36,510 nucleotides of DNA from a virus. Location: positions 1-36,510 of the IMG/VR virus record IMGVR_UViG_3300035698_016227. One strand, given 5' to 3'. Below are positions 261 to 35,899 of this stretch, one piece after another. The position numbers and the translations under genes were made by a program. The number at the start of each line of letters is the position of its first letter. The first letter of the stretch is position 1. The notes under the pieces are model-generated. The model was not told the DNA's origin. It made no database searches and was given only the letters and a program-made list of their open reading frames with translations.

Positions 261-1222
261 TATTTTTTTCGTAGATAATGTAGGTATTCTGTTATAACAT
301 TACTCTCTGTTTTACTGTTTGCCTTAAATCTCTTATACTCTTTTGTATATAAATAATAACCACCAAACTCTTTCATAATAAATTTTATTTGATCTGGATT
401 TAACAATCCTTCATTATTGTAGGATAAAAAAATGTCTTTAGCTTTAGTATCAGCTAATATATTCATAAGAGATTCTTCTACTGTTTTAATGCTGCAAAAG
501 GTAGATTTATTATATTGTTTTGGAAGTCCTGTTATTCCTTGTGGTTCAAACGAAGCTTCTGTTACTATTGTATTGAGTAAATGATAATTCGCTCCATATT
601 GTCTTGTGTTATACGGAGGATCAAGATATAAAATATCAGCTTGTATTTCTTTAACTATAACCTCTGCTCTATATTTAAACACTTTATTATTAGCACCAGT
701 GTTCTTGAACGTAGCTGGTATTAATAGAAATGGTTTTAATGCCGATTTCTTAAAATTTTTTAAATATGCTCCATATACAGAAGTTGTATTCGCTACCCTA
801 TCTGCTGATTCTATCAATGAAGCAAATAAGTGTGCTTTGTAAACAAAATCTGCCTTTGATTTAAATATTTGTTCTCTTATAACATCTATCTTCTTGGCAG
901 TTTCTTCGGTAAAATACATTCTGCCACCGGCAGGAGAATAATGTTTCCAAATAAAACCCTCCTTTGGCGCTAAATCATTTAACCATTTAAAATCTTCTTC
1001 AAAAGATTTACTATTTATTAATAGATTATAATTCAAATAATAACTATAGTCTTCTAAATCATTAGCAAAAACTCTTTCGACTTTTCCGTTAAAATGATTC
1101 CCAACGCATCCAGTTCCTGAAAACAGATCAAAAAAAGATTTATCTTCTAAATCTCCGCATACTTCTTTTATTGTTTCTGTAAGAAATGGAAGAAGGGACA
1201 ATTTACTTCCTATGTAGTTCAA
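260..1222 (-). CDS. dam: DNA adenine N6-methyltransferase, D12/Dam class
   Basis: A 320-residue protein with the D12-class methylase layout. The N-terminal MNYIGSK substrate/AdoMet segment is followed by motif I DLFSGTGCVG (residues 32-41) and the catalytic DPPYNTRQY (201-209). These enzymes transfer methyl from S-adenosylmethionine to adenine N6 in duplex DNA, usually at GATC; the target here is not deducible. In phages they protect DNA from host restriction. The start is a TTG that overlaps the DnaE-C stop (TTGA), which implies translational coupling at the end of the DnaE operon. The length is somewhat above E. coli Dam. The family call is secure; the site specificity is not. Confidence 0.88.
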   Translation of the reverse strand: MNYIGSKLSLLPFLTETIKEVCGDLEDKSFFDLFSGTGCVGNHFNGKVERVFANDLEDYSYYLNYNLLINSKSFEEDFKWLNDLAPKEGFIWKHYSPAGGRMYFTEETAKKIDVIREQIFKSKADFVYKAHLFASLIESADRVANTTSVYGAYLKNFKKSALKPFLLIPATFKNTGANNKVFKYRAEVIVKEIQADILYLDPPYNTRQYGANYHLLNTIVTEASFEPQGITGLPKQYNKSTFCSIKTVEESLMNILADTKAKDIFLSYNNEGLLNPDQIKFIMKEFGGYYLYTKEYKRFKANSKTESNVITEYLHYLRKK

Positions 1223-2745
1223 ACGCCAATCCTTTTAACCATTCTTTTTATTTTAAATTCACTTTCGGTCCAAGCCGCTTGTCCAAACACAACACTACCA
1301 TCATTCATATAAAGATTCATTAAATATAGTTTATCTTTTAATACTTGATCCTTAATGTGTTTCCAATAAGATTGAAACACAGGAACAGATACTTCTTTTC
1401 CGCCCTGATCTTCTACATTTAAGAAGGCCATTTCATTTCCATTCCTATCATTAAAACTTCTTATTGCGTTTATTGTGACTGGAACCTTCATTGATTTTTC
1501 TTTTACATTACTCAAATAAGGATAAATAACTTTTATATCAGCAAGTTTATTTATTGCTTGTAATACTTTTTCTGTGAATAAAGAAGAGAAAACTTTAACT
1601 CCATAAAATGTTTCTTCATATTTAACCAAATCCTCTATAGTAGTTTCTAATGCTGGAATAGAATCCATATAAGATTCACATTCTTTATATATTGCTATTA
1701 GTTTTTCTTCTACCTTAGTAGATTTCTTTTCCTCCCAAAACATTTTAACTGTTTGAAGAAGTTTCTTTCTGTCAGGAGTTTGCCAATCAAAACATCCAAC
1801 TGATATTAATGCTTCAATAACTTTAATAGTAATACATCTGTCTTTAACTCTAAGATAAAATTCTATTAATGAAGAAAAATCTCCACCTATATTTCTCTCA
1901 GCTAATATTCTATCTACTGCTTTTTCTCCAACAAACTTTATATCATTAAGACCAAAGATCATTTTATCTGATTCTAATGGTTTAAATGTATATTCTGAAT
2001 CATTAATATCTGGTGGTAATATTTCTATTCCTTGTTTTCTAACAGCGTTTATTTTAGGAGAAACATTCTTGTCATTATCCATTCCATATGATAATACTGC
2101 TGAGTAATAATATTCTCTAAAATAATACGATAGATATAATGTGATTAAGGCTATATAAGAATAACTTGCTGCATGTGCTCTATTAAAACTATATCCTGAA
2201 AATGCTTGTAAATCTTCTGAGATTTTAACAGCCATTGATTCATCAATCCCAAGTTTGTTGGCTCCACGAATAAACTTTTTTACAACCTTATTCCAAGCCT
2301 TAATATCCTCATCTGCCTTCTCAGCCTTACTAAGCTTTTTCATCAGCCCACGAACAGTATCTGCTTCGTCTAATGAAAAGCCACCTATTTTATGAAAAGT
2401 TTCTATGATTTGTTCTTGGTATAAAAATGTATAATGACTATCTTCTAATATTGCTTCCACTTCTGGAGGATATGGAGATGTACCACTTTCTTTTCTTTCT
2501 ACATAAAATGGAGCACAAGTTTCAAGAGGACCTGGACGAGCCATAGCATTAATAGCCATCACTTCATCAAAGTTTTCTGGTTGTACTTCTTCACATAATC
2601 TTTCAGCTGTGTTTCCACTTAACTGAAAGATTCCTATTTTATTTTGATTATTAGCTTCTTTATATAAGTTAGGATCATCTTCACTTAGTTCATATATCCA
2701 GTTTTCTAAATCTAACTTAGAGCACTCCTTCAATATTTTTATCAT
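1219..2745 (-). CDS. dnaE: DNA polymerase III alpha subunit, C-terminal piece (fingers to OB fold)
   Basis: This 508-residue protein matches the part of bacterial DnaE that follows the palm. It contains GIFQLSGNTAERL (canonical GVFQLES.GM), MARPGPLE (canonical YRPGPM), YQEQI, the nucleotide-binding GGFSLDEADTVRGLMKK, a helix-hairpin-helix-like region with KFVGEKAVDRI, and a C-terminal OB-like segment (FNDRNGNEMAFLNVED). The catalytic aspartates are not here but in the 3900-4769 gene. A ribosome site (AGAAGGA) precedes the ATG. The gene is separated from the preceding DnaE piece by about 1.15 kb holding four small genes. With the other two pieces it totals about 1,212 residues, close to a full-length DnaE, so a non-covalently reassembled polymerase is likely. 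Confidence 0.88.
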   Translation of the reverse strand: MIKILKECSKLDLENWIYELSEDDPNLYKEANNQNKIGIFQLSGNTAERLCEEVQPENFDEVMAINAMARPGPLETCAPFYVERKESGTSPYPPEVEAILEDSHYTFLYQEQIIETFHKIGGFSLDEADTVRGLMKKLSKAEKADEDIKAWNKVVKKFIRGANKLGIDESMAVKISEDLQAFSGYSFNRAHAASYSYIALITLYLSYYFREYYYSAVLSYGMDNDKNVSPKINAVRKQGIEILPPDINDSEYTFKPLESDKMIFGLNDIKFVGEKAVDRILAERNIGGDFSSLIEFYLRVKDRCITIKVIEALISVGCFDWQTPDRKKLLQTVKMFWEEKKSTKVEEKLIAIYKECESYMDSIPALETTIEDLVKYEETFYGVKVFSSLFTEKVLQAINKLADIKVIYPYLSNVKEKSMKVPVTINAIRSFNDRNGNEMAFLNVEDQGGKEVSVPVFQSYWKHIKDQVLKDKLYLMNLYMNDGSVVFGQAAWTESEFKIKRMVKRIGV

Positions 2746-2756
2746 TCATTCCTTCT

Positions 2757-3134
2757 TTAATCATATGCTACATCGGCATATTTATTTACTATACCATCAT
2801 TCTTATAAACTTCAAAATCTACAACATCATATGGTAAGAAATATGCTATCTTCCTACGATTACCTTCTTTCCTTAATATCTCAAGTATTCTAAATGTTGA
2901 GTTCTTCCAAATGAAACTAAATATATTTTTAGATCCATCAACCTTTCCTTGTGATATTTTCTTTAAGAAATTTTCAGCACACTCCTGCTTCATGTCCTCT
3001 ATTATTTCTGGATTGTATATTTTATAATTTCTCATAAGAATAAATTCAGATATTCTATAAACCTTATCAAAAACATACTCCCAATCTTCTTTTACAAATC
3101 TTTCTCTAAGTTCTTCTTTATTTATATCAAGCAT
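2757..3134 (-). CDS. Sigma-70 region 2-like factor, probable T4 gp55-type late sigma
   Basis: A 125-residue protein whose centre (IIEDMKQECAENFLKK, then NIFSFIWKNSTFRILEILRK) has the look of sigma region 2: a core-RNAP-binding helix with an acidic cluster, then a helix with aromatic residues for -10 melting. T4 gp55 is similarly a region-2-only sigma (about 185 aa) that reads simple late promoters. The gene has its own good promoter (3153-3181) inside the 3' end of the preceding ORF and lies between two DnaE pieces. If it is a late sigma, the GTAAAGATA motif is its obvious candidate target; that link is inference. Alternative: an ECF-like fragment of unknown use. Confidence 0.55.
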   Translation of the reverse strand: MLDINKEELRERFVKEDWEYVFDKVYRISEFILMRNYKIYNPEIIEDMKQECAENFLKKISQGKVDGSKNIFSFIWKNSTFRILEILRKEGNRRKIAYFLPYDVVDFEVYKNDGIVNKYADVAYD

Positions 3135-3152
3135 TGCTCTCCTATCTGTTTT

Positions 3153-3181
3153 ATAATATCATTATTCTAACTTTATGTCAA
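3153..3181 (-). promoter_or_regulatory. Sigma70-type promoter for the sigma-like gene
   Basis: TTGACA (3176-3181), 17 bp spacer, TATTAT (3153-3158), about 20 bp ahead of the ATG at 3134. The -35 box lies inside the last codons of the upstream ORF. Confidence 0.65.
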
Positions 3182-3350
3182 GAAGCGCAACTAATAATTG
3201 AAACTCCTTAGTTATTTTTCCTACTTCAAATCCTATCTTTGAAGTATTTATTTCTACATCTTCAAGATAAATTTCTAAAGCGTTTAAAGAACTTTGCATG
3301 CATTCGAACTGCTCAGCTACCATCTTATCTGTGCCTTCTTTTGTTATCAT
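3162..3350 (-). CDS. Small hypothetical protein, 62 aa, helical
   Basis: A 62-residue acidic, probably helical protein with heptad-like spacing (LNALEIYLEDVEINTSKIGF). Its ATG overlaps the stop of the preceding small ORF (ATGA at 3347-3350), so it is likely coupled to it. Its 3' end contains the promoter for the sigma-like gene. No family recognised. Confidence 0.55.
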   Translation of the reverse strand: MITKEGTDKMVAEQFECMQSSLNALEIYLEDVEINTSKIGFEVGKITKEFQLLVALLDIKLE

Positions 3351-3619
3351 CTTATTCTCCTTGTATAATCTTTTAAATATTCATATTTTCTACTTGCTAT
3401 TCTTGTTTCTTTCCAATCCGTAAAAGAATATTCATTTTTTGCTGAAAACCTATGTCTATTTTGAATACAAAAATAGACCATATTTCCTGGTTCATTATTA
3501 ACTAATATTTTCGCATATGTATTTTCTAATCTCGATAAAAATAAAAATCCTAATGCTCTAAACTTTCTGTTGCCTCTATACTGTAATACTTTTGTTGCTA
3601 GACCCTTACAATTTGCGAT
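3347..3619 (-). CDS. Member of the K-L-x-x-L-G-x-x-F small-protein family, non-canonical start
   Basis: A frame free of ATG/GTG/TTG starts encodes about 90 residues with NRKFRALGFLFLSRLEN, matching the family motif of its neighbours. It ends RRIR at a TGA that overlaps the next ATG. I place the start at an ATC (3617-3619) because GAGGGGG lies 8 bases upstream, but an ATT slightly further up or a frameshift out of the overlapping 3598-3903 gene would also fit. The last part of the frame is free of stops and coupled to the next gene, which supports it being translated. Function unknown. Confidence 0.5.
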   Translation of the reverse strand: MANCKGLATKVLQYRGNRKFRALGFLFLSRLENTYAKILVNNEPGNMVYFCIQNRHRFSAKNEYSFTDWKETRIASRKYEYLKDYTRRIR

Positions 3620-3903
3620 TTTCGTTTCCCCCTCAATGTTTGTGTTGTTAACCTAAGCGACCCTTTATTCATTCTATAGTCAAAATAAAGATTTATATAT
3701 TTTCTATCATATCTTGTTTCATCATAATAATCATGATGACCTGGCGTTTCAAATAAAAATATTCTAACGTGTTTATAAGTAGGACCTTTGTTTATAGCCG
3801 CTCTATGTGATGCTGAGAATACAATCCCAAGCATTCTTAATTTATCGTTCGCCTTTATATAACTATATCCTCTTTTTTCATTAGGATCTTTCCATCTACT
3901 CAT
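3598..3903 (-). CDS. Member of the K-L-x-x-L-G-x-x-F small-protein family, 101 aa
   Basis: Contains NDKLRMLGIVFSASHRA after a short basic N-terminal extension, then a beta-rich looking segment with HHDYYDETRYDRKYI and a strongly basic tail (RGKRKSQIVRV). It starts by ATGA overlap with the stop of DnaE-middle (3900) and is followed by another family member in an overlapping frame. It is one of at least nine paralogues in this window; none has a function I can name. Confidence 0.7.
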   Translation of the reverse strand: MSRWKDPNEKRGYSYIKANDKLRMLGIVFSASHRAAINKGPTYKHVRIFLFETPGHHDYYDETRYDRKYINLYFDYRMNKGSLRLTTQTLRGKRKSQIVRV

Positions 3904-4769
3904 AATGTCCCTATCTCCTTATCAAGATAGCTTTGTGGAACTATCTTTTTTACTCCATCCTCTTCTATTAAATATAGTTTCTCATCTATCATATTGATAG
4001 CATTTCTTATTGTATCAAGAACTGTTATTGCTAATACATCAAATTTTACAACACCTACTTCGTCCAAAACCTGTTCTTGCCCACTTTCAGGAAATGCTGT
4101 AACAACTTCTCCAGTAACTCTATCAACCGGAATTCTGTTATATACAGGTTCGTCAAGGATGACTATTCCTCCCGCATGCTTTCCTCCTTGCCGAATCTTA
4201 TTTACAAAATATGGAGTCATATCAAGTATTGCTTTATGGTTTTGATAAAATTGATACACATCAGGGCTATTTTCTTTCAATACCTCAAGATTTTCTTCCC
4301 AAGATATATCAGATTCTAATGCTTTAGAAAACTTATTTGAATCACTATAGTCTATTTTATAAACTCTTAATAAATCCTTAACGGCTGCTTTTATTCCAAG
4401 ACGATTAAACGTCCCAACATGAAGAACACGATCTTCTCCATATTTCTCAAATAAATATTCTTGTATCTTTTGTTTCCCGATTGATCCAAAATCTAAATCA
4501 ATATCCACACCACCAGAACTTCCTGGTTTTACATACTTGAAATCCCACTCCTCATTTGTTATTTCTTCGGTTAATCCCATTAAATTTGGAATAATATACC
4601 GAGTTTTAACTTTACCAGAATTCTCTGCTAAGTATTTATAAAGATTAATTTCATTATCATAATATCTCTTAGCATAAGTTAGTTCTTTCTTATATTTCTT
4701 TTTTAAATCTTCTGGAAGCTCTTTTGCTTTCTCATCACAAAATGCTTTAAATTCCTTAAATGTTTCCAT
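3900..4769 (-). CDS. dnaE: DNA polymerase III alpha subunit, middle piece with the palm catalytic residues
   Basis: A 289-residue protein carrying the DnaE palm. GGVDIDLDF (residues 86-94) corresponds to the canonical PDxDIDF that supplies two metal-binding aspartates. It is followed by YLFEKYGEDRVLHVGTF (canonical YVxEKYGxDxVAxIxTF), GGKHAGGIVI (195-204) and KFDVLAI (242-248), which supplies the third aspartate. The first ~85 residues are a charged helical extension with no DnaE counterpart I recognise. The protein ends just before the segment that begins the 1219-2745 gene. It is separated by 26 bp from DnaE-N, with its own AAAGGAA ribosome site. Alone it could not be a complete polymerase. 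Confidence 0.88.
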   Translation of the reverse strand: METFKEFKAFCDEKAKELPEDLKKKYKKELTYAKRYYDNEINLYKYLAENSGKVKTRYIIPNLMGLTEEITNEEWDFKYVKPGSSGGVDIDLDFGSIGKQKIQEYLFEKYGEDRVLHVGTFNRLGIKAAVKDLLRVYKIDYSDSNKFSKALESDISWEENLEVLKENSPDVYQFYQNHKAILDMTPYFVNKIRQGGKHAGGIVILDEPVYNRIPVDRVTGEVVTAFPESGQEQVLDEVGVVKFDVLAITVLDTIRNAINMIDEKLYLIEEDGVKKIVPQSYLDKEIGTL

Positions 4770-4795
4770 ATCTTATTATAACATTTCCTTTCTTT

Positions 4796-6043
4796 TTACG
4801 CAAGATAGTCAATCACCAAATCTGGACTTCTGCTTTCGCTCATAAATCTCTCAAACAATAATCCTCTCTTAATAGGATCAAGATTATGAACCCCAAGAGC
4901 GTAAGCCAATAAACTCCCGCCTACTGATCCTCTGCCAAATCTTCCGTATATGTTTTCTTTTATTGAGAACTGCGTAATGTCTTCTACTATAAGAAAATAA
5001 CTTGCAAACCCCTTTCTTATAATAATCTCTAGTTCTTTTACTAATCGTTTTTGATATTCTATTGGAATGTCTTTGAAATTATCTACTCCGAATTTTTTCA
5101 TTAATCCAGCCTTACCATTCTTAATCAACAAAGCTTCATCGTTGTCTGATATTGTTGGTAGAAATATTTTCTTTCTTTCTGGTATAAGAAAATTACATTT
5201 GTCGGCAATAAACTCAGAGTTATTACACCAAGTAAGAACGTCATCTTCATCATAGTTGTATTCCCACTTCTTATTAAATTCAAGATAATCTTTTACATCA
5301 TGATAAAAAAGATGTTTACTTTCAAGTTCAAACTTAATCGTATCTATTGTTGCTTTATCTCTAATAGCAATAGCTAATGTTTGTAGTTGAGCTTGTCCCG
5401 GTTCTAAATAATGAACATCACCAGTCATTACAAGCGGAATACCATTTTTATTAGCCATTCTAATCATAAACTCATTTACTACTTTCTGTTCTTTTAATTC
5501 ATTTAGCTGAATTTCTGTATAAAAGTCATCACCAAATCCTTCTACATACTTCATATACAATTCTTCTGCTGTATCTTCCTTGTCAGCTAAAACTAATCTT
5601 GCCATTGGGTTAGCTATACAACCAGTTCCAACAATCAATCCTTCTTTATTGTCGAAGATTTCTTTAAGAAGATTTCTTGGATTATAATAGAAATGATCTG
5701 CGTCTTTCATACTAATATAATTAAGTTTTAATAAATTATTATAGCCTACCGCGTTTTTAACAAGAAGAATGATATGTTGAGTTTTGGTTCTTTTTCTTTT
5801 TTCTTTTTCATTCATTACAACAAGCTTATAAGTAAGATAAGCCTCTACCCCAAGAATAGGTTTAATACCATATTTTATACATTGAGTTTGATGCTCCCAA
5901 ATACCGCTTATTCTTCCATGATCTGTAATAGCTAATGCTGGGTGATTATATTCTAATGCTCTTTGTGCATAATCACTTGAGGACCCGATTGCATCCAATC
6001 TTGATCCAACATGTGTATGTAAATGTAATTGTATAAATGCCAT
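4796..6043 (-). CDS. dnaE: DNA polymerase III alpha subunit, N-terminal piece (PHP domain to edge of palm)
   Basis: A 415-residue protein opening with the PHP signature QLHLHTHVGSRLDAIG (residues 5-20) and AITDHGRISG. It then has GTGCIANP, VMTGDVHYL and the palm-entry GRFGRGSVGGSLLAYALG (canonical GRGSGAGSLVAYxL), DPIKRGLLFERFMSESRSPD. It stops at SPDLVIDYLA, exactly where the catalytic PDxDIDF motif should fall; the working copy of that motif is in the next gene. The PHP domain in bacteria gives structural support or proofreading; most metal ligands appear present here. The start overlaps the upstream small gene (TAATG). Confidence 0.9.
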   Translation of the reverse strand: MAFIQLHLHTHVGSRLDAIGSSSDYAQRALEYNHPALAITDHGRISGIWEHQTQCIKYGIKPILGVEAYLTYKLVVMNEKEKRKRTKTQHIILLVKNAVGYNNLLKLNYISMKDADHFYYNPRNLLKEIFDNKEGLIVGTGCIANPMARLVLADKEDTAEELYMKYVEGFGDDFYTEIQLNELKEQKVVNEFMIRMANKNGIPLVMTGDVHYLEPGQAQLQTLAIAIRDKATIDTIKFELESKHLFYHDVKDYLEFNKKWEYNYDEDDVLTWCNNSEFIADKCNFLIPERKKIFLPTISDNDEALLIKNGKAGLMKKFGVDNFKDIPIEYQKRLVKELEIIIRKGFASYFLIVEDITQFSIKENIYGRFGRGSVGGSLLAYALGVHNLDPIKRGLLFERFMSESRSPDLVIDYLA

Positions 6044-27768: not shown

Positions 27769-28056
27769 TTATTGTCTAGGAATTACTTGCCCGATGGATT
27801 TACCATCGGGTTTTTTTTGTCCTGCTGAACTTTCATTTAATACCTCTTCTTCAGCATCACCCCTATCTCTTTTATGTTTATATAAAAGATTAGAATAATC
27901 AAGAAATTCCTCTATAGGCATTTGAACAAGGGCTTCATATGAGAAGCCCCAGTCTATGAGATAAAATATAGTTTGTCTTATGTTTTTAATATTTTTAGGA
28001 CTAAAAGCGAAAAAACTCAGGTCCCATTGGTATAGAACCAGAATAATCCGATTCAC
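27769..28056 (-). CDS. Probable baseplate-hub partner protein, up to 95 aa, start uncertain
   Basis: It overlaps the end of the gp26-like gene by 56 bases in the +1 frame. The only start in the frame is a GTG at 28056 without a clear ribosome site. Coding quality is best from AFSPKNIKNIRQTIFYLIDW onward, with MPIEEFLDYSNLLYKHKRDR. In T4-like phages a small hub gene (gp51) accompanies gp26, so this may be its equivalent, but I see no convincing sequence match. Its last codons (KPDGKSIGQ) are antisense to the plus-strand terminator stem. Confidence 0.5.
   Translation of the reverse strand: MNRIILVLYQWDLSFFAFSPKNIKNIRQTIFYLIDWGFSYEALVQMPIEEFLDYSNLLYKHKRDRGDAEEEVLNESSAGQKKPDGKSIGQVIPRQ
27790..27818 (+). 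terminator. Rho-independent terminator ending the 26.3-27.8 kb plus-strand unit
   Basis: CCCGATGG-ATTTA-CCATCGGG followed by T8. It lies inside the 3' coding end of the convergent minus-strand gene. Confidence 0.88.
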
Positions 28057-28894
28057 AATAAGGACAAGTAACCCCCTCCAACTGATCTACACCAGTTGAA
28101 AATGTTGTCGCTTCTCTTAGAGTAGCTGTATCCATACCTGGAAGTGCTTCAAAAAATTCTTCCCAATCCTTCTTAGGAACTTCTTCATCATTAAAATTTA
28201 ATATTTCTGTTGTAGTAACCATGAGATTATCTACAAGTCTTGTTTCAGTATCAGAAGATTTCTTTTTTCTATTTGCATCCTTTAGAACTAGTTCTTCTGA
28301 ATGATATAATCTTGGAAGAATTGTCTTAACTGTAAATCCTGATTTTGGGAGTTGAATAACGATAGGTTCTTCTACACCATCTGGTAGTTCTTCAAATACC
28401 AAATCTGATATTTTTACTGTATGCTCAAACTTTCTTTCACACATAGTATTTGAACAAGTAATATTAAAATTATATTCATCTCCGTATGAAATCATTCTTA
28501 AATGATACATCAAAAAATTACTATCAAACATTAAAATATCTTTAGCACTAATATCTGATTCAATACATCTATCCAAAATAGCTCTTGTTGCTGCACCAGA
28601 TTTTAGAAATCTAGGGGTAGAAAGAATCTCTTCTTCTTTCATTCCCATTGGAAGCATTTTAATATATCCATTTAATATATCTGGATCATCTGTTACATTA
28701 GAATATAATCTTCCACCACTAGGCAATGGGATTGTTTCTGCTTCTGAGAAAACAAACTTTCCACTTCTCTTTTGCCTACTGGGTTTGACCACCCTTTCTT
28801 CAAAATCTTTTTCTACCTTATTTACTGCTTCTACATTTTTAATATTACTTAAATCTATTGGTGGTAAAACACCATCATTTTTATCTCTCGCCAT
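28001..28894 (-). CDS. 26: Baseplate hub protein, T4 gp26-like
   Basis: A 297-residue protein with the hub-family pattern: ETIPLPSGGRLYSNV, then MGMKEEEILSTPRFLKSG, LDRCIESD and LMYHLRMISYGDEYNF. It has two Cys pairs, CSNTMC and a C-terminal CPYC (VTCPYCESDYSG), suggesting a metal site. In T4, gp26 acts in assembly of the central baseplate hub. It is larger than T4 gp26 (208 aa), like relatives in other T4-type phages. AGGAGG precedes the ATG. Confidence 0.65.
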   Translation of the reverse strand: MARDKNDGVLPPIDLSNIKNVEAVNKVEKDFEERVVKPSRQKRSGKFVFSEAETIPLPSGGRLYSNVTDDPDILNGYIKMLPMGMKEEEILSTPRFLKSGAATRAILDRCIESDISAKDILMFDSNFLMYHLRMISYGDEYNFNITCSNTMCERKFEHTVKISDLVFEELPDGVEEPIVIQLPKSGFTVKTILPRLYHSEELVLKDANRKKKSSDTETRLVDNLMVTTTEILNFNDEEVPKKDWEEFFEALPGMDTATLREATTFSTGVDQLEGVTCPYCESDYSGSIPMGPEFFRF

Positions 28895-28951
28895 TATTTC
28901 CTCCTATCATCTTATATATGCTTTACGGATTATTTTTAGATTAAATAAAAA

Positions 28952-28960
28952 GTAAAGATA
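28952..28960 (+). promoter_or_regulatory. GTAAAGATA motif, candidate late promoter
   Basis: AAGTAAAGATAAGATTGAT directly precedes ATG 28969. An almost identical string precedes ATG 30862. If it is a -10 type element, the messages would be nearly leaderless. Confidence 0.5.
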
Positions 28961-28968
28961 AGATTGAT

Positions 28969-29187
28969 ATGAAACTTCAAACACTCTTAAATGAAATGGC
29001 AATGAGAAATTTTACTGATAAAGAAGATTTTGAAACTTGGTTAAAGAAATCACCAGCCGGTATTATTCATAATGTTGGGGCGAAGCCAATTGTAAGAGAA
29101 TTTTTTGATTATAAAAAGGGTTTTGAGGAAATTCTCAAAAAAGATAAAACAGGTGGGTGGGTGGGTTATTACTGCTCGCCGTTCTAG
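28969..29187 (+). CDS. Internal-protein module, N-terminal part, interrupted at a GGTG repeat
   Basis: 72 residues starting MKLQTLLNEMAMRNFTDKED, a leader of the capsid-targeting type (L-N-E before M-A), then a body that breaks at a (GGTG)n repeat and ends YYCSPF. Removing one 4-base unit joins it in frame to the 29105-29473 frame, giving a protein of about 166 residues. So this is either a phase-variable gene in the off state, a recent mutation, or an assembly error. Function unknown. Confidence 0.55.
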   Translation: MKLQTLLNEMAMRNFTDKEDFETWLKKSPAGIIHNVGAKPIVREFFDYKKGFEEILKKDKTGGWVGYYCSPF

Positions 29188-29473
29188 AAACTGGGAAAAG
29201 GTATTTGATTCTAGAAAAGCATTTGATGCTCTGATTAGGATTGCTACTGTAGATCCTTATTATAAATTAATCAGACAGCTTTATCTTGCCGGTCTTGATT
29301 TTCCATCTTTTGATTATAAAAAAGGCCTTGAAGTATTAAAAAGGCAAAGCCGTGATCTTTATTATAGAAAAGCATTAAAGGATTGGCCAATAGATATCAA
29401 AATGGCAAAAGAAAAAACTAAAGAGATTAGAAATACTTCTTCTAAACTACCAAAGAAGAAATTAAAATTATGA
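29105..29473 (+). CDS. Internal-protein module, C-terminal part, ends S-S-K-L-P-K-K-K-L-K-L
   Basis: The real coding part starts after the GGTG repeat (about 29165) with VITARRSRNWEKVFDSRKAF and runs to SSKLPKKKLKL. This ending is the same as the module ends in the next gene. Its stop overlaps the following ATG (TTATGA). It repeats the word FDYKKG from the N-terminal part, hinting at an internal duplication. No start codon of its own with a ribosome site, so it is best read as the 3' half of the 28969 gene. Confidence 0.5.
   Translation: MIIKRVLRKFSKKIKQVGGWVITARRSRNWEKVFDSRKAFDALIRIATVDPYYKLIRQLYLAGLDFPSFDYKKGLEVLKRQSRDLYYRKALKDWPIDIKMAKEKTKEIRNTSSKLPKKKLKL
29152..29166 (+). repeat. (GGTG)n tetranucleotide repeat at a reading-frame break
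   Basis: Three full GGTG units plus GGT. One unit fewer restores a continuous reading frame (T-G-G-W-V-I-T-A-R). Tetranucleotide tracts in coding DNA are classic slipped-strand switching sites, though this one is short. Confidence 0.7.
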
Positions 29474-29745
29474 AATTAAGAGAAGGCAAACAAGAAGAAA
29501 AAATATTAAAAGAAAGACTACCAGAAGCTGAGTTTTTAAAGACTGATGCTTTTGATAGAGCACTCTTCAACTATAGAGGTGCTGAATATTCATTCTCATG
29601 TGATTTTGAAAAATATAGTGTTCGTCCAATGAAAAGATCAGGTAATGATACTGCAACTCAAGCTTGGGCAAAAGCACTTAAACTTCAAGATCAGATTCAA
29701 ACTATGGGTATAAAAGCAGCAAAAAATAAAATCTTCTTCCTCTAA
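29470..29745 (+). CDS. Modular internal protein, first module, frame broken at an A tract
   Basis: 91 residues starting MKLREGKQEEKILKERLP, with a core RGAEYSFSCDFEKYSVRPMK, and ending KNKIFFL because of a frame break. Removing one A from the A6 tract (29721-29726) continues the frame as SSSSKLPNKKLKLEGILSEG, i.e. directly into the next coding region. I therefore read 29470-30550 as one three-module gene with a single-base difference. Its ATG overlaps the stop of the previous gene. Confidence 0.55.
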   Translation: MKLREGKQEEKILKERLPEAEFLKTDAFDRALFNYRGAEYSFSCDFEKYSVRPMKRSGNDTATQAWAKALKLQDQIQTMGIKAAKNKIFFL

Positions 29746-29769
29746 ACTACCAAATAAAAAATTGAAACT
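29741..29769 (+). repeat. 29-bp direct repeat at a module junction, copy 1
   Basis: Starts TCTAAACTACCAAATAAAAA; identical to 30164-30192, and a diverged copy lies at 29441-29467. It encodes S-K-L-P-N-K-K-L-K-L, the junction between modules, and would support module loss or gain by recombination. Confidence 0.8.
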
Positions 29770-30550
29770 AGAAGGTATATTAAGTGAAGGAACACAAGTA
29801 GAAAATAGATTAAATAGAATGAAAGGAATCACTAATGTAAAACGTCTTCCAAATAAAAATGGTGAGTTAAAATGGTATAGAACTGTTACAACAATGAGCG
29901 GACCAGAAAAAGAAAACTTTGGTAAAGATTATAAAGGAATTCCATTTTATACATTCACATATAAAAAAGAAAACTATGCTGTTCGTCGTAGAAATGCTGC
30001 ATTCGAAGGTTTACTAATATTTAATAAAAAAAGGAAACAATGGGAATCAGTACTAGATGCAGGTGCTGGTAGATATTCAGAACTTACAGAATTATACAAT
30101 TTATTAGCTAGTAAAAACATTTCAGATCTGAAAAAGATTAATAAAAAGATTAAGGCTAAATCTTCTAAACTACCAAATAAAAAATTGAAACTTGAAGCTG
30201 CTTTATATGAAGGACACAGTAAGGCAAAAATAGATAGAGTTATGAAATTAGCTGATACATTAAGAGAGAAAATACCGAGTGCTAAAATAATAGCTATACA
30301 AAAAACTGCTCAACCATTACCCCAAATAAAATTTGAATATAAGAATAATAAATTTATTATTTTTCAGTCTGAATCGTTTGATGTTATTAGAGTTAGAACG
30401 GCTCAATATAACTCTACTAATGAACAAGATAAATTAGTTGAAGAATTACGGAATATATTGACTGCTATAAATAGAAAAGAAGCAATTGAAAAAACAAAAA
30501 AGATAAGAGATAATTCTACTAAATTACTTAAGAAGAAGTTCAAGCTTTAA
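29762..30550 (+). CDS. Modular internal protein, two modules separated by a prohead-protease-like site
   Basis: 262 residues. The nominal TTG start (29762) is inside the module junction, so it is more likely the continuation of the 29470 frame. Module A starts KLEGILSEGTQVENRLNR and ends SSKLPNKKLKL. Module B starts at once with EAALYEGHSKAKIDRVMK and ends STKLLKKKFKL. The L-S-E/G and L-Y-E/G sequences fit the T4 gp21 cleavage rule, which would release each module in the head. Both modules share a Y/F-x-F-x-Y-K core (FYTFTYKKENYAVR and IKFEYKNNKFIIF). Function unknown. Confidence 0.6.
   Translation: MKLEGILSEGTQVENRLNRMKGITNVKRLPNKNGELKWYRTVTTMSGPEKENFGKDYKGIPFYTFTYKKENYAVRRRNAAFEGLLIFNKKRKQWESVLDAGAGRYSELTELYNLLASKNISDLKKINKKIKAKSSKLPNKKLKLEAALYEGHSKAKIDRVMKLADTLREKIPSAKIIAIQKTAQPLPQIKFEYKNNKFIIFQSESFDVIRVRTAQYNSTNEQDKLVEELRNILTAINRKEAIEKTKKIRDNSTKLLKKKFKL
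30164..30192 (+). repeat. 29-bp direct repeat at a module junction, copy 2
   Basis: Identical to 29741-29769, 423 bp apart, at the corresponding place between modules. Confidence 0.8.
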
Positions 30551-30844
30551 TTTCTTTTATTTTTAAATATTCCTCCGGAAAGATTTAGGATAACTTACGT
30601 TTATACGTTATGCCATTCGTCGCTTTTCGTGCTACTCTCGCGGGTTTCACCTTCGCTTCGCCGCTTCGTAGCACGAACTCTCCTACGGACGTTCTGCTCG
30701 TTAATGTTTAGTTCAAGCACTAATCATTAAACACTTTTATATATGTGGTGAGAACTGTTCGTTTACGGGGTAGAAATGAAACTTTTTCATTTTTCTTTGT
30801 GCAATTTTGAAGAGCCGTTTTCATAAATTTTCTCATCTATCCAA
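30551..30844. other. GC-richer, structured intergenic region
   Basis: No convincing gene in about 290 bp. It contains a 10-bp perfect inverted repeat TTCGTGCTAC (30626-30635) / GTAGCACGAA (30668-30677), with an inner GCGG/CCGC pairing. Base composition is much richer in G+C than the surroundings from 30615 to 30700. It may encode a structured RNA or be a short palindromic insertion. A 33-codon frame across it (30610-30711) has no ribosome site. Confidence 0.5.
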
Positions 30845-30853
30845 GTAAAGATA
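30845..30853 (+). promoter_or_regulatory. GTAAAGATA motif, candidate late promoter
   Basis: AAGTAAAGATAACATTGAT directly before ATG 30862, differing by one base from the string before ATG 28969. Confidence 0.5.
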
Positions 30854-30861
30854 ACATTGAT

Positions 30862-32595
30862 ATGAAACTTAGTCAAATATTACAAGAAGAGTGGGTTGAT
30901 TCATTTAAAGAAAAACAATTTGCAAAAAAAACAATAGAAATATTTAAGAATCCCACTAATAAAGAAATGGATGAAATAGCGAAAAAAACACCCGAAGAAA
31001 CAACTCTTAGGTTTTTAGCTACAACTAAAGGAGATCTATTTGTTTTTTCTTCTGAAACCATTCACGACCCAGTAGCAAGACAATTAAAGTTAAATACAAA
31101 CCCTATTAAAACAAAAGATTATTGGGGTGTAGCAAAAAAAGGTTCAAGGGGTAAATGGGAATTTAAAAACTCAGATTCCCACTATAATAGAAAAATACCA
31201 GAATTCGTAAGCAAATGGATTGAGTTACCAAAAAAAAACATTAAAGAAGAGTGGGCTGATAGTTTTAAAATGGATGGCAAAACTACTGAAATATTTGTAA
31301 ATCCTACTACTAAAGAAATGCTTGAAATAGCTTCTGGCGTGGGTAAAGAAATTAGATGGTTAGCTAATAATAAAACTAAAAAACTTTATGTGTGGGAAGC
31401 TAGTGATATAATCCATATTTATATGGCAAGAAAATTAGATTTTATTAAAAGCAACTTTGATTATACACCAGAACAAAAAAGAATTATAGGTGGAACAGCA
31501 CAATTTAGAAACGGTAAATTTATTACAGATTCAGCTCATATAGTAAAGTATGATAGCGTTCGTGATGACGACGATAATACAATAGGATATCGTTATACTC
31601 AAGAAGATATAAAAAGTTGGAAATGGATAGAGAAATATATTAACATAGATTATATAAAAAATTTAATTAACAAAAGAACTAAAAAAATGAATGAAGAATG
31701 GGTAGATAGTTTTAATTATAGATCAAATGGTCCAGAAAGAACAATTGAAGTATTTAAAAATCCTTCTATAAAAGAAATAAATGAAGTAAGTAAAAAATTA
31801 GGAAAATACCAATCAGTTAGATTTATGATTCATAATAAAGAAATGTATGTTTTTGAACCATATGTATTTCATGATGATGTTTGTAGGCAATTAGGTATTT
31901 CATCCTCAAATACAAGAAGGCCAGAAAAAGGACAATTTTGGGGTAGTGCTATTAAAAAAAATATGAAATGGACATATGAAGGTTCAGATTCAGGATTCGA
32001 TGGTCTAAAACCATCTCTTATTTGGAAATATTTTAAAAAACCAACAGAAACAGATATGGGCAGTAAACCTATCCCTCAACCAGATGAATATAATGAAGAA
32101 TGGAAAGACAGTTTTAAATCTTGGGGTAGAGATACAATGTCTAATAAGTCAAAAATGGTAGATGTATTTGTGAATCCTACCACTAAAGAAATGTTAGAAG
32201 TAGAAAAGAGATTAGCAATAAGATTCTTAGCTGATTTTAAGACTAAAAAAGTTTATGTCTTTACTCCAGAAATGTTACATTGGGAAATAGCAAAAAAACT
32301 TGGCATGGCAGATGGAATGGAAAATTATTTTCAAAACACAAAACTACTTGGTGGAATCGGCAAACTTAGTAGTGGAAAATTTAGATTAGAGAGATTGCCT
32401 CATAACGTAAGAAATATAGGAGCTGGACCAAGAGAACTACAAACACTGGTCACTACAGCAAAAAGAGATTGGTCGTTTGTAGATAAATATATAGCAGGAA
32501 CATCTACTAAGTTAAAAGAAATAGCTACTTCTTATGAAAAACGCTTAAAGAAAAACTTCGCAAAAGAATGGATTAAAGAACAATATGAACTTTAA
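30862..32595 (+). CDS. Four-repeat internal protein of the E-E-W-x-D-S-F family
   Basis: 577 residues made of four diverged copies of one domain beginning at residues 9 (EEWVDSF), 129 (EEWADSF), 278 (EEWVDSF) and 412 (EEWKDSF). Each has T-x-E-I/V-F-x-N-P-T-x-K-E-M, then R-F/W-L/M-A, a K-x-x-Y/F-V-F/W strand, an H-x-x-x-x-x-x-L helix and a final W-x-W/Y-K-Y-like part. The leader MKLSQILQEEW fits the capsid-targeting/protease pattern (L-Q-E/E), and I-K-E/E recurs at repeat 2. A fifth copy is the separate gene at 32938. I infer an internal head protein delivered as several domains; activity unknown. Confidence 0.65.
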   Translation: MKLSQILQEEWVDSFKEKQFAKKTIEIFKNPTNKEMDEIAKKTPEETTLRFLATTKGDLFVFSSETIHDPVARQLKLNTNPIKTKDYWGVAKKGSRGKWEFKNSDSHYNRKIPEFVSKWIELPKKNIKEEWADSFKMDGKTTEIFVNPTTKEMLEIASGVGKEIRWLANNKTKKLYVWEASDIIHIYMARKLDFIKSNFDYTPEQKRIIGGTAQFRNGKFITDSAHIVKYDSVRDDDDNTIGYRYTQEDIKSWKWIEKYINIDYIKNLINKRTKKMNEEWVDSFNYRSNGPERTIEVFKNPSIKEINEVSKKLGKYQSVRFMIHNKEMYVFEPYVFHDDVCRQLGISSSNTRRPEKGQFWGSAIKKNMKWTYEGSDSGFDGLKPSLIWKYFKKPTETDMGSKPIPQPDEYNEEWKDSFKSWGRDTMSNKSKMVDVFVNPTTKEMLEVEKRLAIRFLADFKTKKVYVFTPEMLHWEIAKKLGMADGMENYFQNTKLLGGIGKLSSGKFRLERLPHNVRNIGAGPRELQTLVTTAKRDWSFVDKYIAGTSTKLKEIATSYEKRLKKNFAKEWIKEQYEL

Positions 32596-32941
32596 AGAAC
32601 TACAACAAGATTTGTTTGAAGCAAATAAAATATTACAAGACGTGCCTGGAAAGTTCACAAAGATAATGCTTAAGGATGGCAATAAAGTAATGGCATTTTT
32701 TGGCAAAGATAATACTGTGTATGTAATAGATGCTTCTATTACAGGATTAAGTAAGTTTAAAGATTGGGATGGAAGAGATGCTATGGCAGACATACAAACA
32801 ACTGGAAAAAAAGTTCGTTTAGCTACAGGAGTTAAAGTTCCTACCATAAGAATAAGAGTAGAAATGAAAACTGATGATGATGAAAACGATGGGGATGGTA
32901 AAGAGTTAGAAAAACCTAATGGAGAAGAATTAGCAGTATGA
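32585..32941 (+). CDS. Small internal protein, 118 aa, with protease-type leader
   Basis: Starts MNFKELQQDLFEANKILQDV, where L-F-E before A-N fits the T4 prohead-protease rule. The body is beta-like (KIMLKDGNKVMAFFGKDNTV) and the end is acidic (DDDENDGDGKELE). It overlaps the previous stop by 11 bases and the next start (ATGA-type), in a tightly packed late unit. No family recognised. Confidence 0.6.
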   Translation: MNFKELQQDLFEANKILQDVPGKFTKIMLKDGNKVMAFFGKDNTVYVIDASITGLSKFKDWDGRDAMADIQTTGKKVRLATGVKVPTIRIRVEMKTDDDENDGDGKELEKPNGEELAV

Positions 32942-33411
32942 AACTAAAAGAAGAATGGGCAGATAGTTACCAAGAAAACGGAATAACTCGTGAAATATTT
33001 GTTAATCCAACATCTAAAGAAGTAGCAGATCTTAAAGCGAAAGGACTGAGGTGGATGGCTGATTCTAAAACTAAAAAGTTTTACATTGCTGATAATACTG
33101 TATGGCATGGTCAAATGATAGAGAAACTTAAACTTATGGATAATGTACCAAACTTACCACATTTTAAATCAACAAGATGGTTAACTGGTGATTTATACAA
33201 AGGTAAACATAATAGTGATTTGATGGATAGTGGTATGATTGGGAGAGAAAAGAAAAAGACTATACTTAAAAAAGATTGGTCTTGGGCATATAAATATTTA
33301 CCAGGATTAAAAGAATATGTAGAAAATTTGAAAATAGTATACAATTTAAAAGAGGATATTATGAAAATAGACAATTTGTTAAATACAATGTTAACAGAGA
33401 CTAAGTGTTAA
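32938..33411 (+). CDS. Single-domain E-E-W-x-D-S family internal protein, 157 aa
   Basis: MKLKEEWADSYQENGITREI, then FVNPTSKEVADLKAKG and RWMADSKTKKFYIADN, WSWAYKYLPG: a stand-alone fifth copy of the domain repeated in the 30862 gene. L-K-E/E at the very start fits the leader pattern, here almost without a leader body. A C-terminal tail (MKIDNLLNTMLTETKC) follows. It overlaps the GTG start of the downstream nuclease gene. Confidence 0.6.
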   Translation: MKLKEEWADSYQENGITREIFVNPTSKEVADLKAKGLRWMADSKTKKFYIADNTVWHGQMIEKLKLMDNVPNLPHFKSTRWLTGDLYKGKHNSDLMDSGMIGREKKKTILKKDWSWAYKYLPGLKEYVENLKIVYNLKEDIMKIDNLLNTMLTETKC

Positions 33412-34106
33412 AGTATAAAGAATTTGTTTTAACAAAAGAATACTCTAACTTTTTAGAAAATAAAAATGATATAATAGAAAAATATATTAATGGATATACG
33501 GCAAAAGAATTAGCTGAAGTATATGGGTTTAATAGATTATGTCTACCAAATTATTTAAGAAAAGAGAAAATAGAAACAAGAAAACGCGGAGAACCTACAA
33601 AAAGACAAGCAGATAAAATAAAGAAAACTATCTATAAAAAATACGGTGTTATAAATCCAGGACAAATACCTAATCAAATAGAAAAGTCAAAAAAAATATC
33701 AAATGCTAGGAAAAAGAATGGAACATGGAGTGGCAAAAATAATCCAAACTATGGAAATAAAATAGGAAATAATTATGGATACAAAAGTGGTTTAAGGAAA
33801 GATATAGACATATATGTTAGAAGTAGCTGGGAAGCTAATGTTATAAGAATTTTAAAATTTTTAAATGTTAATTTTGAATATGAAAAATATAGAATTCCTA
33901 TAAACAATAAAGAAACAATTTTAATCGATTTGTATCTTCCTGATTATAAGAAATTTATAGAGGTAAAAGGATATTGGAGAGATGACGCTAGAAGAAAAAC
34001 AAAAGAGCTATTGAATAAATATGATATTAATTTGACTATTATAGAAGAAGGATATTATAAGTGGCTAATTAATAAATTTAAAAACATTATTTATTTGGAG
34101 AATTAA
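33405..34106 (+). CDS. PD-(D/E)XK homing-type endonuclease
   Basis: 233 residues from a GTG start overlapping the upstream stop. The N-terminal half has a helix-turn-helix-like segment (INGYTAKELAEVYGFNRLCL) and a NUMOD3-like GKNNPNYGNKIGNNYGY. The C-terminal half is a nuclease core: VRSSWEANVIRILKFL, FEYEKYRIPI, IDLYLPDYKKFIEVKGYW, where D and E-x-K fit the PD-(D/E)XK active site. Such free-standing enzymes spread by cutting genomes that lack them. It sits between an internal-protein gene and the DHH gene, whose 5' end is disturbed. Confidence 0.7.
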   Translation: MLKYKEFVLTKEYSNFLENKNDIIEKYINGYTAKELAEVYGFNRLCLPNYLRKEKIETRKRGEPTKRQADKIKKTIYKKYGVINPGQIPNQIEKSKKISNARKKNGTWSGKNNPNYGNKIGNNYGYKSGLRKDIDIYVRSSWEANVIRILKFLNVNFEYEKYRIPINNKETILIDLYLPDYKKFIEVKGYWRDDARRKTKELLNKYDINLTIIEEGYYKWLINKFKNIIYLEN

Positions 34107-34139: not shown

Positions 34140-34217
34140 TTGATAGATAACTTGCTTGTTGAGTCCGGTATTAGAATACCAAAAGGAACTCATGCGGCAA
34201 AAGTTATCTATCATTAG
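34140..34217 (+). CDS. Leader peptide frame of the DHH gene
   Basis: AGGAGG is followed 5 bases later by TTG 34140. The 25-residue frame begins (M)IDNLLVESGIRIPKGTHAAK and ends VIYH at a TAG. L-V-E before S-G fits the internal-protein leader rule. The end, A-A-K-V-I-Y-H, looks like the strand and histidine that begin DHH motif I, whose remainder (YQDLDG) is in the -1 frame just beyond. I read it as the true 5' end of the 34241 gene, separated by a frame break. Confidence 0.55.
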   Translation: MIDNLLVESGIRIPKGTHAAKVIYH

Positions 34218-34240
34218 TTTACCAAGATTTAGATGGTGTA

Positions 34241-35899
34241 ATGTCTGCTTTATTAACTGTTCAACAACTTGTTAAACAAGGTATCCCAAAAGATAAAATA
34301 AGATTATCAGCCATTCATGACAGGGATAAAAGAAAAGAAGGGGTTATTGGTAAAAAACTAGCAGCATCTAAAGGACAAATGGTTGCTCTAGTTGACTTTG
34401 CTCGTATTCCAAAAGAAGGTGTCAGACAACCTGACTTTTGGAGCGATCATCATGTAACAGATGAGGACCAAAAGAAAGTAGCTGAAAAAATTGTTTCTCA
34501 TAAAAAAGAAGATCCAAAAAAGAAAATAACTAAAAGTGGAAAAGAAATTAAAATAGATCCTAAAACGGGAAAAAAATATATTGACGTAGACTGGAACCCA
34601 GTAGAGAAAAAAAGAGGTAAGCTTGGTACATATAGGACTGGAAAGATTAAAAAAATAAAAAGAGTTCAATTGGGTGAAGCGATTGGTAAAACTGATTATC
34701 CTAGTGAAGCAGAACATTTAGCAACAGTTCATACACAAAACTTAATGACTGGAAAAGACATAAAGGCTATATCAATAGTAGATTCAGCTTCTTATTCTAA
34801 ACTTAAAGACTTAATAGATTTACCAAAAAGTTTTAGAAAGAAAGGAAGAATGGAGAAATTAGCGATTATAACTAATGTATTAATGGGTAAAATGCTTACA
34901 AGTAATCCAACAGCCATTAATCAATTGATTATGACAGCCAATCCTTCATTAGTATCAGTTTATAACACATTACTTAAACTTGCTAAACTTAACAACAAAC
35001 AAGCGGAGGCTATTAGAGAACTTGGTAAAGTAAAACCTAACTATGATTTAATAAAGAAAACCAAAACAGAACTCCCTCCAGAAATGGCTAAAGAAGTTAA
35101 TAAAACCAAAGATAGTAAATCTATAAAGAAACTTACTTCATTAGAACAAACAAGAGCTAAAAGAAAAGAAGAAATAAAAATTCAAACTGATCCTAAAACT
35201 ACCCGGTTTAAGAAGGGTAACGATTATGTTATTATTCAAACCAATAAACCAGGAAGCACTCAACCACAAAGATTTACTGGTAGTTTATTAACCAAACAAA
35301 CGGGAGAGAGATATCCTGCTATGATGAGAGAATGGGGAAACATGTTTCAAATCTCATTAAATCCTTCTTTAAAAATGGCAGATAAAGAAAAAGTAAATCT
35401 CACTAAAGGAGTAGATAAAATTCTTGGAGATGTGATTAGAGATGTTAATAATGGAACAATAAAAGTTAGAGATAAGGGGATGACAAAATGGGCACTAACT
35501 AAAGTTATCAGACCTGAAGCTGGTGGCCATGCTGGTATAACAACAGTAGGTGGATTAGCTACACTAGGGTTAGCTCCAAAAAGTATAAGAGAAGATCTTA
35601 AGAAGTTATTTGAATATGAGAAAAGAGTTAAAGCTCTTAAGGGTAATAAAAAGATGGCAGATATAATGCCTAAATCTGCTGCTAAGATGACAGAACTTAA
35701 AAAAATAAAGGCTGATTTTGCTCAAGAAAGAACAATGATAGTGGCAGAAATAAAGAAGAGAATTCTTGATGGTGTTGCTAAAGCGATGAAGACAAGAGGG
35801 GTTGAAATGCCTAAAGGGTCTGATAGATTTAAGGTGAAAACAAAAAAACCTTCCATAAAAGAAAGTATTCAGTATAGGAATAGAAACTGGAGAACATAA
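34241..35899 (+). CDS. DHH-family phosphoesterase (with DHHA1), 5' end in another frame
   Basis: 552 residues from the first ATG. Motifs: SAIHDRDKR, VALVDFARIP, SDHHVTDEDQ (the DHH signature), YPSEAEHLATVHTQ, AISIVDSAS and a C-terminal EAGGHAGITTVGG (DHHA1 G-G-H). The expected motif I, D-L-D-G-x-x-S, is present but straddles the ATG: YQDLDG lies immediately upstream in the same frame, with no start codon, reachable only from the leader frame by a -1 shift. DHH enzymes hydrolyse oligonucleotides, cyclic dinucleotides or ssDNA (RecJ, NrnA, GdpP). With a capsid-type leader it might be injected with the DNA. Confidence 0.7.
   Translation: MSALLTVQQLVKQGIPKDKIRLSAIHDRDKRKEGVIGKKLAASKGQMVALVDFARIPKEGVRQPDFWSDHHVTDEDQKKVAEKIVSHKKEDPKKKITKSGKEIKIDPKTGKKYIDVDWNPVEKKRGKLGTYRTGKIKKIKRVQLGEAIGKTDYPSEAEHLATVHTQNLMTGKDIKAISIVDSASYSKLKDLIDLPKSFRKKGRMEKLAIITNVLMGKMLTSNPTAINQLIMTANPSLVSVYNTLLKLAKLNNKQAEAIRELGKVKPNYDLIKKTKTELPPEMAKEVNKTKDSKSIKKLTSLEQTRAKRKEEIKIQTDPKTTRFKKGNDYVIIQTNKPGSTQPQRFTGSLLTKQTGERYPAMMREWGNMFQISLNPSLKMADKEKVNLTKGVDKILGDVIRDVNNGTIKVRDKGMTKWALTKVIRPEAGGHAGITTVGGLATLGLAPKSIREDLKKLFEYEKRVKALKGNKKMADIMPKSAAKMTELKKIKADFAQERTMIVAEIKKRILDGVAKAMKTRGVEMPKGSDRFKVKTKKPSIKESIQYRNRNWRT

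Follow-up and report, generated by a model that had tools for sequence, protein, structure and literature searches.

Tagged, partly fused protein modules in a T4-related phage: a probable polyprotein-type expansion of the T4 internal-protein system

Introduction

Internal head proteins are among the earliest phage proteins inside the host. In T4, the internal proteins IPI-IPIII and Alt carry a capsid-targeting sequence that is cut by gp21 (PMC9026906, PMC3012670, PMC12373910); gp21 cleaves after L/I-X-E, and the N-terminal 10 residues of IPIII suffice for packaging (PMC9026906). T4 Ip1-Ip3 disable GmrSD restriction enzymes (PMC12373910). The inner-body or ejection proteins of phiKZ and SPN3US are paralogous head proteins whose propeptides are cut after Glu by a gp21-like protease (PMC5694885), and the polyvalent proteins of phages and conjugative elements are multidomain chains that are believed to travel with the DNA and to be split into functional parts (PMC5512222).

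Here we analyse a locus whose coding units begin with short tags resembling the T4 capsid-targeting sequence, some of them fused into chains. From sequence comparison we think it likely that this is an expanded, partly polyprotein-type T4 internal-protein cassette, with capsid-targeting tags and chains that gp21 should cut apart.

Results

The window studied is a complete virus record of 36,510 bases, a fragment of a T4-related myovirus whose genes include DNA polymerase pieces, an SbcCD-like nuclease, UvsX, a single-strand binding protein, a tail tube and a gp26-like baseplate hub. The divergent hub gene (28001-28894, minus strand) comes just before the M1-M4 region described below. The DnaE-like DNA polymerase occupies at least three minus-strand ORFs (1219-2745, 3900-4769 and 4796-6043, within 1219-6043); a frameshift as the origin of this split was rejected, as the gene is split likewise in the relatives G001, G003 and G016. 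The polymerase and UvsX-like ORFs of G003 (L065:7722-9848 and L066:7919-10072) hold internal stretches of about 270-280 aa, missing from the window, which are possibly inteins. Relatives were reached only via the hub gene and via profiles: the hub gene and hub profile led to 17 relatives and a profile of the EEW module (see below) to 28 loci; the M3-M4 ORF and the 577-aa ORF, as direct queries, gave no match in IMG/VR or in annotated GenBank phages. An Rfam search gave nothing credible.

Modules M1-M4 span 28969-30550 on the plus strand and end in [ST]-x-K-L-[PL]-x-K-K-[LF]-K-L, followed by (M/L)-K-L...L-x-E↓G, where the arrow marks the predicted cut. M1 (28969-29473; ORFs 28969-29187 and 29105-29473) has the predicted tag MKLQTLLNE↓M and the tail SSKLPKKKLKL, its second frame ending in NTSSKLPKKKLKL and a stop codon. 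At the junction ATGA the TGA of M1 (29471-29473) overlaps the ATG of MKLREGKQEEK at 29470, the start of M2 (29470-29745; predicted tag MKLRE↓G), whose reading frame changes within an A-run immediately ahead of the linker at 29738. The linker SSKLPNKKLKL runs in frame into EGILSE↓G at the M2-M3 junction (29738-29770) and into EAALYE↓G at the M3-M4 junction (30161-30193). The 29745/29762 join requires the frame change in the A-rich run just upstream, the alternative being an M3 start at TTG 29762, giving MKLEGILSE↓G. In the fused M3-M4 ORF (29762-30550) cuts are predicted at LSE↓G (after 29788) and at LYE↓G (after 30211), and M4 ends in STKLLKKKFKL and a stop codon. 

Thus the SSKLPxKKLKL ends and (M/L)-K-L starts that the sequence-only reading had described are seen directly, with the M4 variant, as are the stop/ATG overlap at 29470 and the in-frame fusion that it placed about 30190. 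Its one-base-corrected join at 29745/29762 stands either as a frame change in the A-run or as a separate TTG start, its 29-bp identical repeat at two junctions proved exact, and the fit that it saw of LSE↓G and LYE↓G to the gp21 L/I-x-E rule is supported by comparison.

None of M1-M4 matched any known function. M1 is homologous to the FDYxKG modules of a polyprotein in the relative G016 (E 8e-57), and M4 has a weak similarity (31% over 75 aa, E 1e-4, in one comparison) to the product of a linker gene in L090. The predicted structure of M4 is alpha-beta4-alpha (pLDDT 74.8); fold searches with the M4 and EEW models gave no significant match.

Repeated DNA marks the junctions and edges of this block. 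The 29-bp repeat, TCTAAACTACCAAATAAAAAATTGAAACT, lies on the plus strand within the two linkers, at 29741-29769 and 30164-30192; its copies are identical, and no two 100-nt stretches drawn at random from this region had more than 12 bp in common. A second repeat, unremarked in the sequence-only reading, is a 28-bp leader plus MKL block, AAGTAAAGATAA[GC]ATTGATATGAAACTT, whose two plus-strand copies (28950-28977 and 30843-30870, 96% identical) bound M1-M4. The same block, with 3 mismatches, precedes a 1287-aa ORF of the close relatives L003/L004 that is homologous to the 577-aa ORF. In these two, a non-coding element, the leader and an EEW polyprotein come straight after the hub gene, and the whole M1-M4 block is missing from that place. 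The non-coding element is 79% identical to a G+C-rich one at 30618-30747 in the window (no strand assigned), which is possibly a regulatory element or RNA; it had no match in public phages, nor did an exact 29-base piece of it in GTDB species genomes. Since L003/L004 keep this order without M1-M4, and the duplicated leader frames the block, M1-M4 would represent either an insertion in the window or a loss in L003/L004. Recombination at the junctions is thus supported, at the level of sequence, by the 29-bp and 28-bp repeats and by the lack of M1-M4 at that place in two close relatives.

The tagged-start architecture continues past M1-M4 to 35899, also unremarked in the first reading, with every feature on the plus strand. 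The 577-aa ORF (30862-32595) holds four EEW modules, R1-R4, with predicted sites LQE↓E after 30888, IKE↓E after 31248, MNE↓E after 31695 and YNE↓E after 32097. It is followed by a 118-aa ORF (32585-32941; predicted tag MNFKELQQDLFE↓A) with homologues in L003/L004 and G016, and by a fifth EEW module, R5 (32938-33411; predicted tag MKLKE↓EW). An endonuclease-like gene (33405-34106), inserted at the tag, separates R5 from a DHH/DHHA1-type module (34140-35899), which starts at TTG with the predicted tag IDNLLVE↓SGIRIPKG and has a frame change near 34214. An endonuclease-like gene is found upstream of the DHH gene in L027 too (L027:9149-9868). The DHH module matches Pfam DHH only below that family's cut-off; its motifs (DxD, a central D, DHH and a C-terminal GGH) are invariant in 7 relatives, the window copy being split by the frame change. 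In L004 an 803-aa ORF fuses an EEW module to the DHH module via LKEDTMKLNE↓SGIRIPKG; in L005, L023, L050 and L054 the DHH module stands alone, each time behind a differing tag, and the L027 DHH protein contains a variant linker. Altogether, a predicted tag of about 10 residues ending in L/I-x-E is found in the window on M1, M2, M3, R1, R5, the 118-aa ORF and the DHH module, and likewise in relatives.

Some 35 window genes align with the relatives' proteins in one frame, the exceptions being M1 and DHH. The M1 frame change, near 29155 in a GGTG tandem repeat, was unremarked in the first reading; that of M2/M3, at about 29725 in the A-run, has no relative to compare. Sequencing error as the sole cause is unlikely on this sequence comparison, because the other 35 or so genes are single-frame and both testable frame changes fall in the cassette. 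That all three recognised in the window do so, two of them in short repeats (GGTG and poly-A), speaks rather for real decay or switching of modules, and suggests that some modules are decaying or switched off; given the M1 and M2/M3 changes, some may not be made in full by this genome. M1-M4 might even be what is left of a polyprotein that frame changes have broken up, decaying and now without function. The confinement of frame changes to the cassette, with none in the roughly 35 other genes compared, would fit such decay, as would tails such as KKKLKL before a stop codon, which resemble leftovers of a lost fusion. However, long frames remain open, tags and L-x-E sites are intact at M2, M3 and M4, and own starts are possible for M2 (ATG 29470) and M3 (TTG 29762), so that we think this the less probable state of the block, though one deserving some weight. 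It is in any case compatible with the internal-protein reading for the family as a whole.

The relatives show modules both as chains and as single genes. G016 (L058) has an in-frame polyprotein, truncated at the contig end yet still at least 899 aa long, with five linker junctions of the form P-M-K-[KT]-L-K-L-K-E↓ (DTAKKLPMKKLKLKE↓S twice, DTAKKLPMKTLKLKE↓D, DTSKKLPMKTLKLKE↓N and DTAKKLPMKKLKLKE↓EW), each ending L-K-E; it contains FDYxKG, other and EEW modules, the last being EEW. Every linker retains a Met, which suggests that it preserves the place where a separate gene once started. In an IMG/VR scan for the linker with Met, repeated matches were found in G016 only, and six other single matches did not fit the longer linker pattern. 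EEW modules are fused in the window, L004, L079, L080, L083, L085 and L096; in L086, L088 and L091 most are separate small genes with their own tags (MRLLKYINE↓EYL, MRLKHYINE↓EW, MNNIDMLVE↓KY and others). Module number, which the sequence-only reading had singled out for comparison among relatives, does vary: four EEW modules in the window's 577-aa ORF become nine in the 1287-aa ORF of L004, beside the absence of M1-M4 at the corresponding place in L003/L004.

A motif-guided scan found hydrophobic-x-E, any residue, then W/Y/F in 64 of 70 EEW copies, N-terminal and internal alike, a figure biased toward finding the motif and with the site misplaced in at least two L004 copies. The hand-checked count is the better one: in the window 577-aa and L004 1287-aa proteins, all 11 internal boundaries are hydrophobic-x-E (against 2.7% of positions), with P3 being L/I at only 5 of the 11 and P1' mostly Glu. 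These boundaries bear on whether the chains, tagged and head-packaged, might instead stay uncut internally, losing only the N-terminal tag and acting as one repeat protein. The EEW copies are paralogous, so E-[EG]-[WF] may have been kept as the start of the first strand, and P3 departs from L/I at 6 of the 11 boundaries. Yet the linker-type modules keep L-x-E despite unrelated bodies; one EEW copy that stands alone in G016 (L058:7694-8137) lacks a tagged EEW start at its ATG, and the fold thus seems able to do without it; and the predicted EEW structure (pLDDT 76.6) places the junctions ahead of the first strand, in end regions modelled with low confidence. An uncut chain thus seems to us unlikely.

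The tag precedes bodies that are unrelated to each other: DHH/DHHA1, ART-like, SprT-like, zeta-toxin-like, EEW and FDYxKG. On the DHH proteins it reads L/I-x-E↓[SA], with the P1 Glu invariant in 7 of 7 relatives, P3 L/I and P1' S/A, and the sequence preceding it diverges. Five ART-like proteins start with a tag ending x-E, the ART-like label being based on weak Pfam scores and an HYTN motif, and the SprT-like and nucleotidyltransferase-like proteins have a similar tagged start. Among 675 ORFs from the window and its relatives, 46 have an N-terminal [LI]NE and 28 an N-terminal [LI][NSTQ]E[AGS]; the internal control windows give 12.5 (maximum 21) and 6.8, respectively. The excess of loose N-terminal [LI]xE, at 1.56x, is barely above that of control motifs (1.35-1.49x) and proves little alone, most of it being due to the general Glu/Leu richness of N-termini.

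Among individual tagged families, the HYTN-motif proteins (L005:7834-9359, L004:1427-2260, L023:12004-12843 and L027:3881-4846) have a weak Tox-ART-HYD1 similarity and are possibly injected ADP-ribosyltransferases; a PDB profile search with the ART-like proteins found no relatives. Zeta-toxin-like P-loop kinases carry the tag at L058:18153-18821 (MKFKQLTE↓G) and L091:5715-6659 (MKFQNYLTE↓K).

No head-maturation protease was found among the window ORFs scanned against PHROGs, and the 36.5-kb piece shows no gp21, a point against the reading, although one to be expected of a fragment. The sequence-only reading had made much depend on whether related phages possess a prohead protease gene, and some do. 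A gp21-family protease (PF03420, E 4.6e-21; PHROG 207 head maturation protease, E 3.7e-46) is encoded near gp23 in G010, a 201-kb relative whose hub shows 55% identity, and this gp23 itself has ELNE↓APM in its N-terminal region; PF03420 is also found in 4 of the 16 EEW-bearing contigs. L090 has a KLP-linker gene and an EEW gene placed between its terminase and portal genes and, about 4 kb further along, gp21; this linker-EEW order recurs in L080, there in front of a portal-like gene. That the modules are ordinary small cytoplasmic or tail-associated proteins, with a start motif common by descent and a coincidental L-x-E, is improbable: the adjoining baseplate-hub and replication genes and the generic Glu/Leu richness of N-termini would allow it, but the tag sits on non-homologous bodies, and the L090 genes lie inside a terminase-portal-protease block.

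Discussion

The sequence-only reading had proposed a cassette fused, split or swapped by recombination and cut apart in the head. Comparison supports this in part, namely the modularity, the fusion, splitting and swapping, the match to the gp21 rule and the presence of a gp21-family protease in relatives: at the level of sequence, the locus consists of modular tagged units with fusion and fission, presence/absence framed by repeats and conserved predicted cut sites. Packaging, cutting, injection and an effector role we infer; early action against host defence or metabolism is suggested by analogy with T4 internal proteins and polyvalent proteins.

If the locus is an expanded internal-protein cassette, each module would start with a short capsid-targeting sequence (MKLxxLxE and variants), by which modules, single or as fused chains, would enter the prohead core. 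There, cleavage by a gp21-family prohead protease after L/I-x-E, and in this locus also where P3 is another hydrophobic residue, would take off the tag and part the modules of a chain. The modules would remain in the head beside the packaged DNA and pass into the host when the phage infects; their targets there would most likely be host defences or metabolism. Provided that the tag/cut site persists, loss or gain of a stop codon between two modules would do no harm, and modules could be exchanged, added or lost through recombination at the conserved leader, tag and linker sequences. The virus would thus probably ship several injected proteins per infection and rearrange its modules like cassettes.

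More speculatively, the locus may be a phage counterpart of RNA-virus polyproteins, with several injected effectors in one chain, a capsid-entry tag on each that doubles as the cut site of a common prohead protease acting in trans, modules reshuffled at tag/linker DNA and single modules switched on or off by slippage in short repeats (GGTG in M1, the A-run in M2/M3); this is a tentative suggestion, which we put forward as possible. If environmental T4-like phages carry long tagged chains, the tag/cut-site signature would be a practical means of picking out candidates for injected counter-defence proteins in sequence data alone, and, if the proposal is true, how a phage sets the number and ratio of its packaged effectors becomes testable.

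In comparing the locus with known systems, we take T4-type internal proteins as the known part and the polyprotein arrangement as the apparently new one; the literature searched gave no description of prohead-protease-processed internal-protein chains, an absence which is no proof of novelty. No peptidase family was found in the window 577-aa, L004 1287-aa and G016 chains. Like polyvalent proteins, the locus has several domains per chain (as in the L004 803-aa EEW-DHH fusion and the G016 chain); however, those proteins are described with embedded peptidase domains, whereas here cutting would be in trans by the prohead protease. It shares with phiKZ and SPN3US paralogous proteins and predicted after-Glu cutting by a gp21-like protease, but in those phages long propeptides sit on single proteins and no separable-module chains are described, unlike the cassette here. 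The closest likeness is to the T4 internal proteins, in the short N-terminal L/I-x-E tag on diverse unrelated bodies, the gp21-family protease in relatives and the plastic module set. The locus differs from them in its tandem in-frame chains with a tag/cut site at every junction, its KLPxKKLKL linker and its many modules, whose bodies are not homologous to the T4 internal proteins as far as tested.
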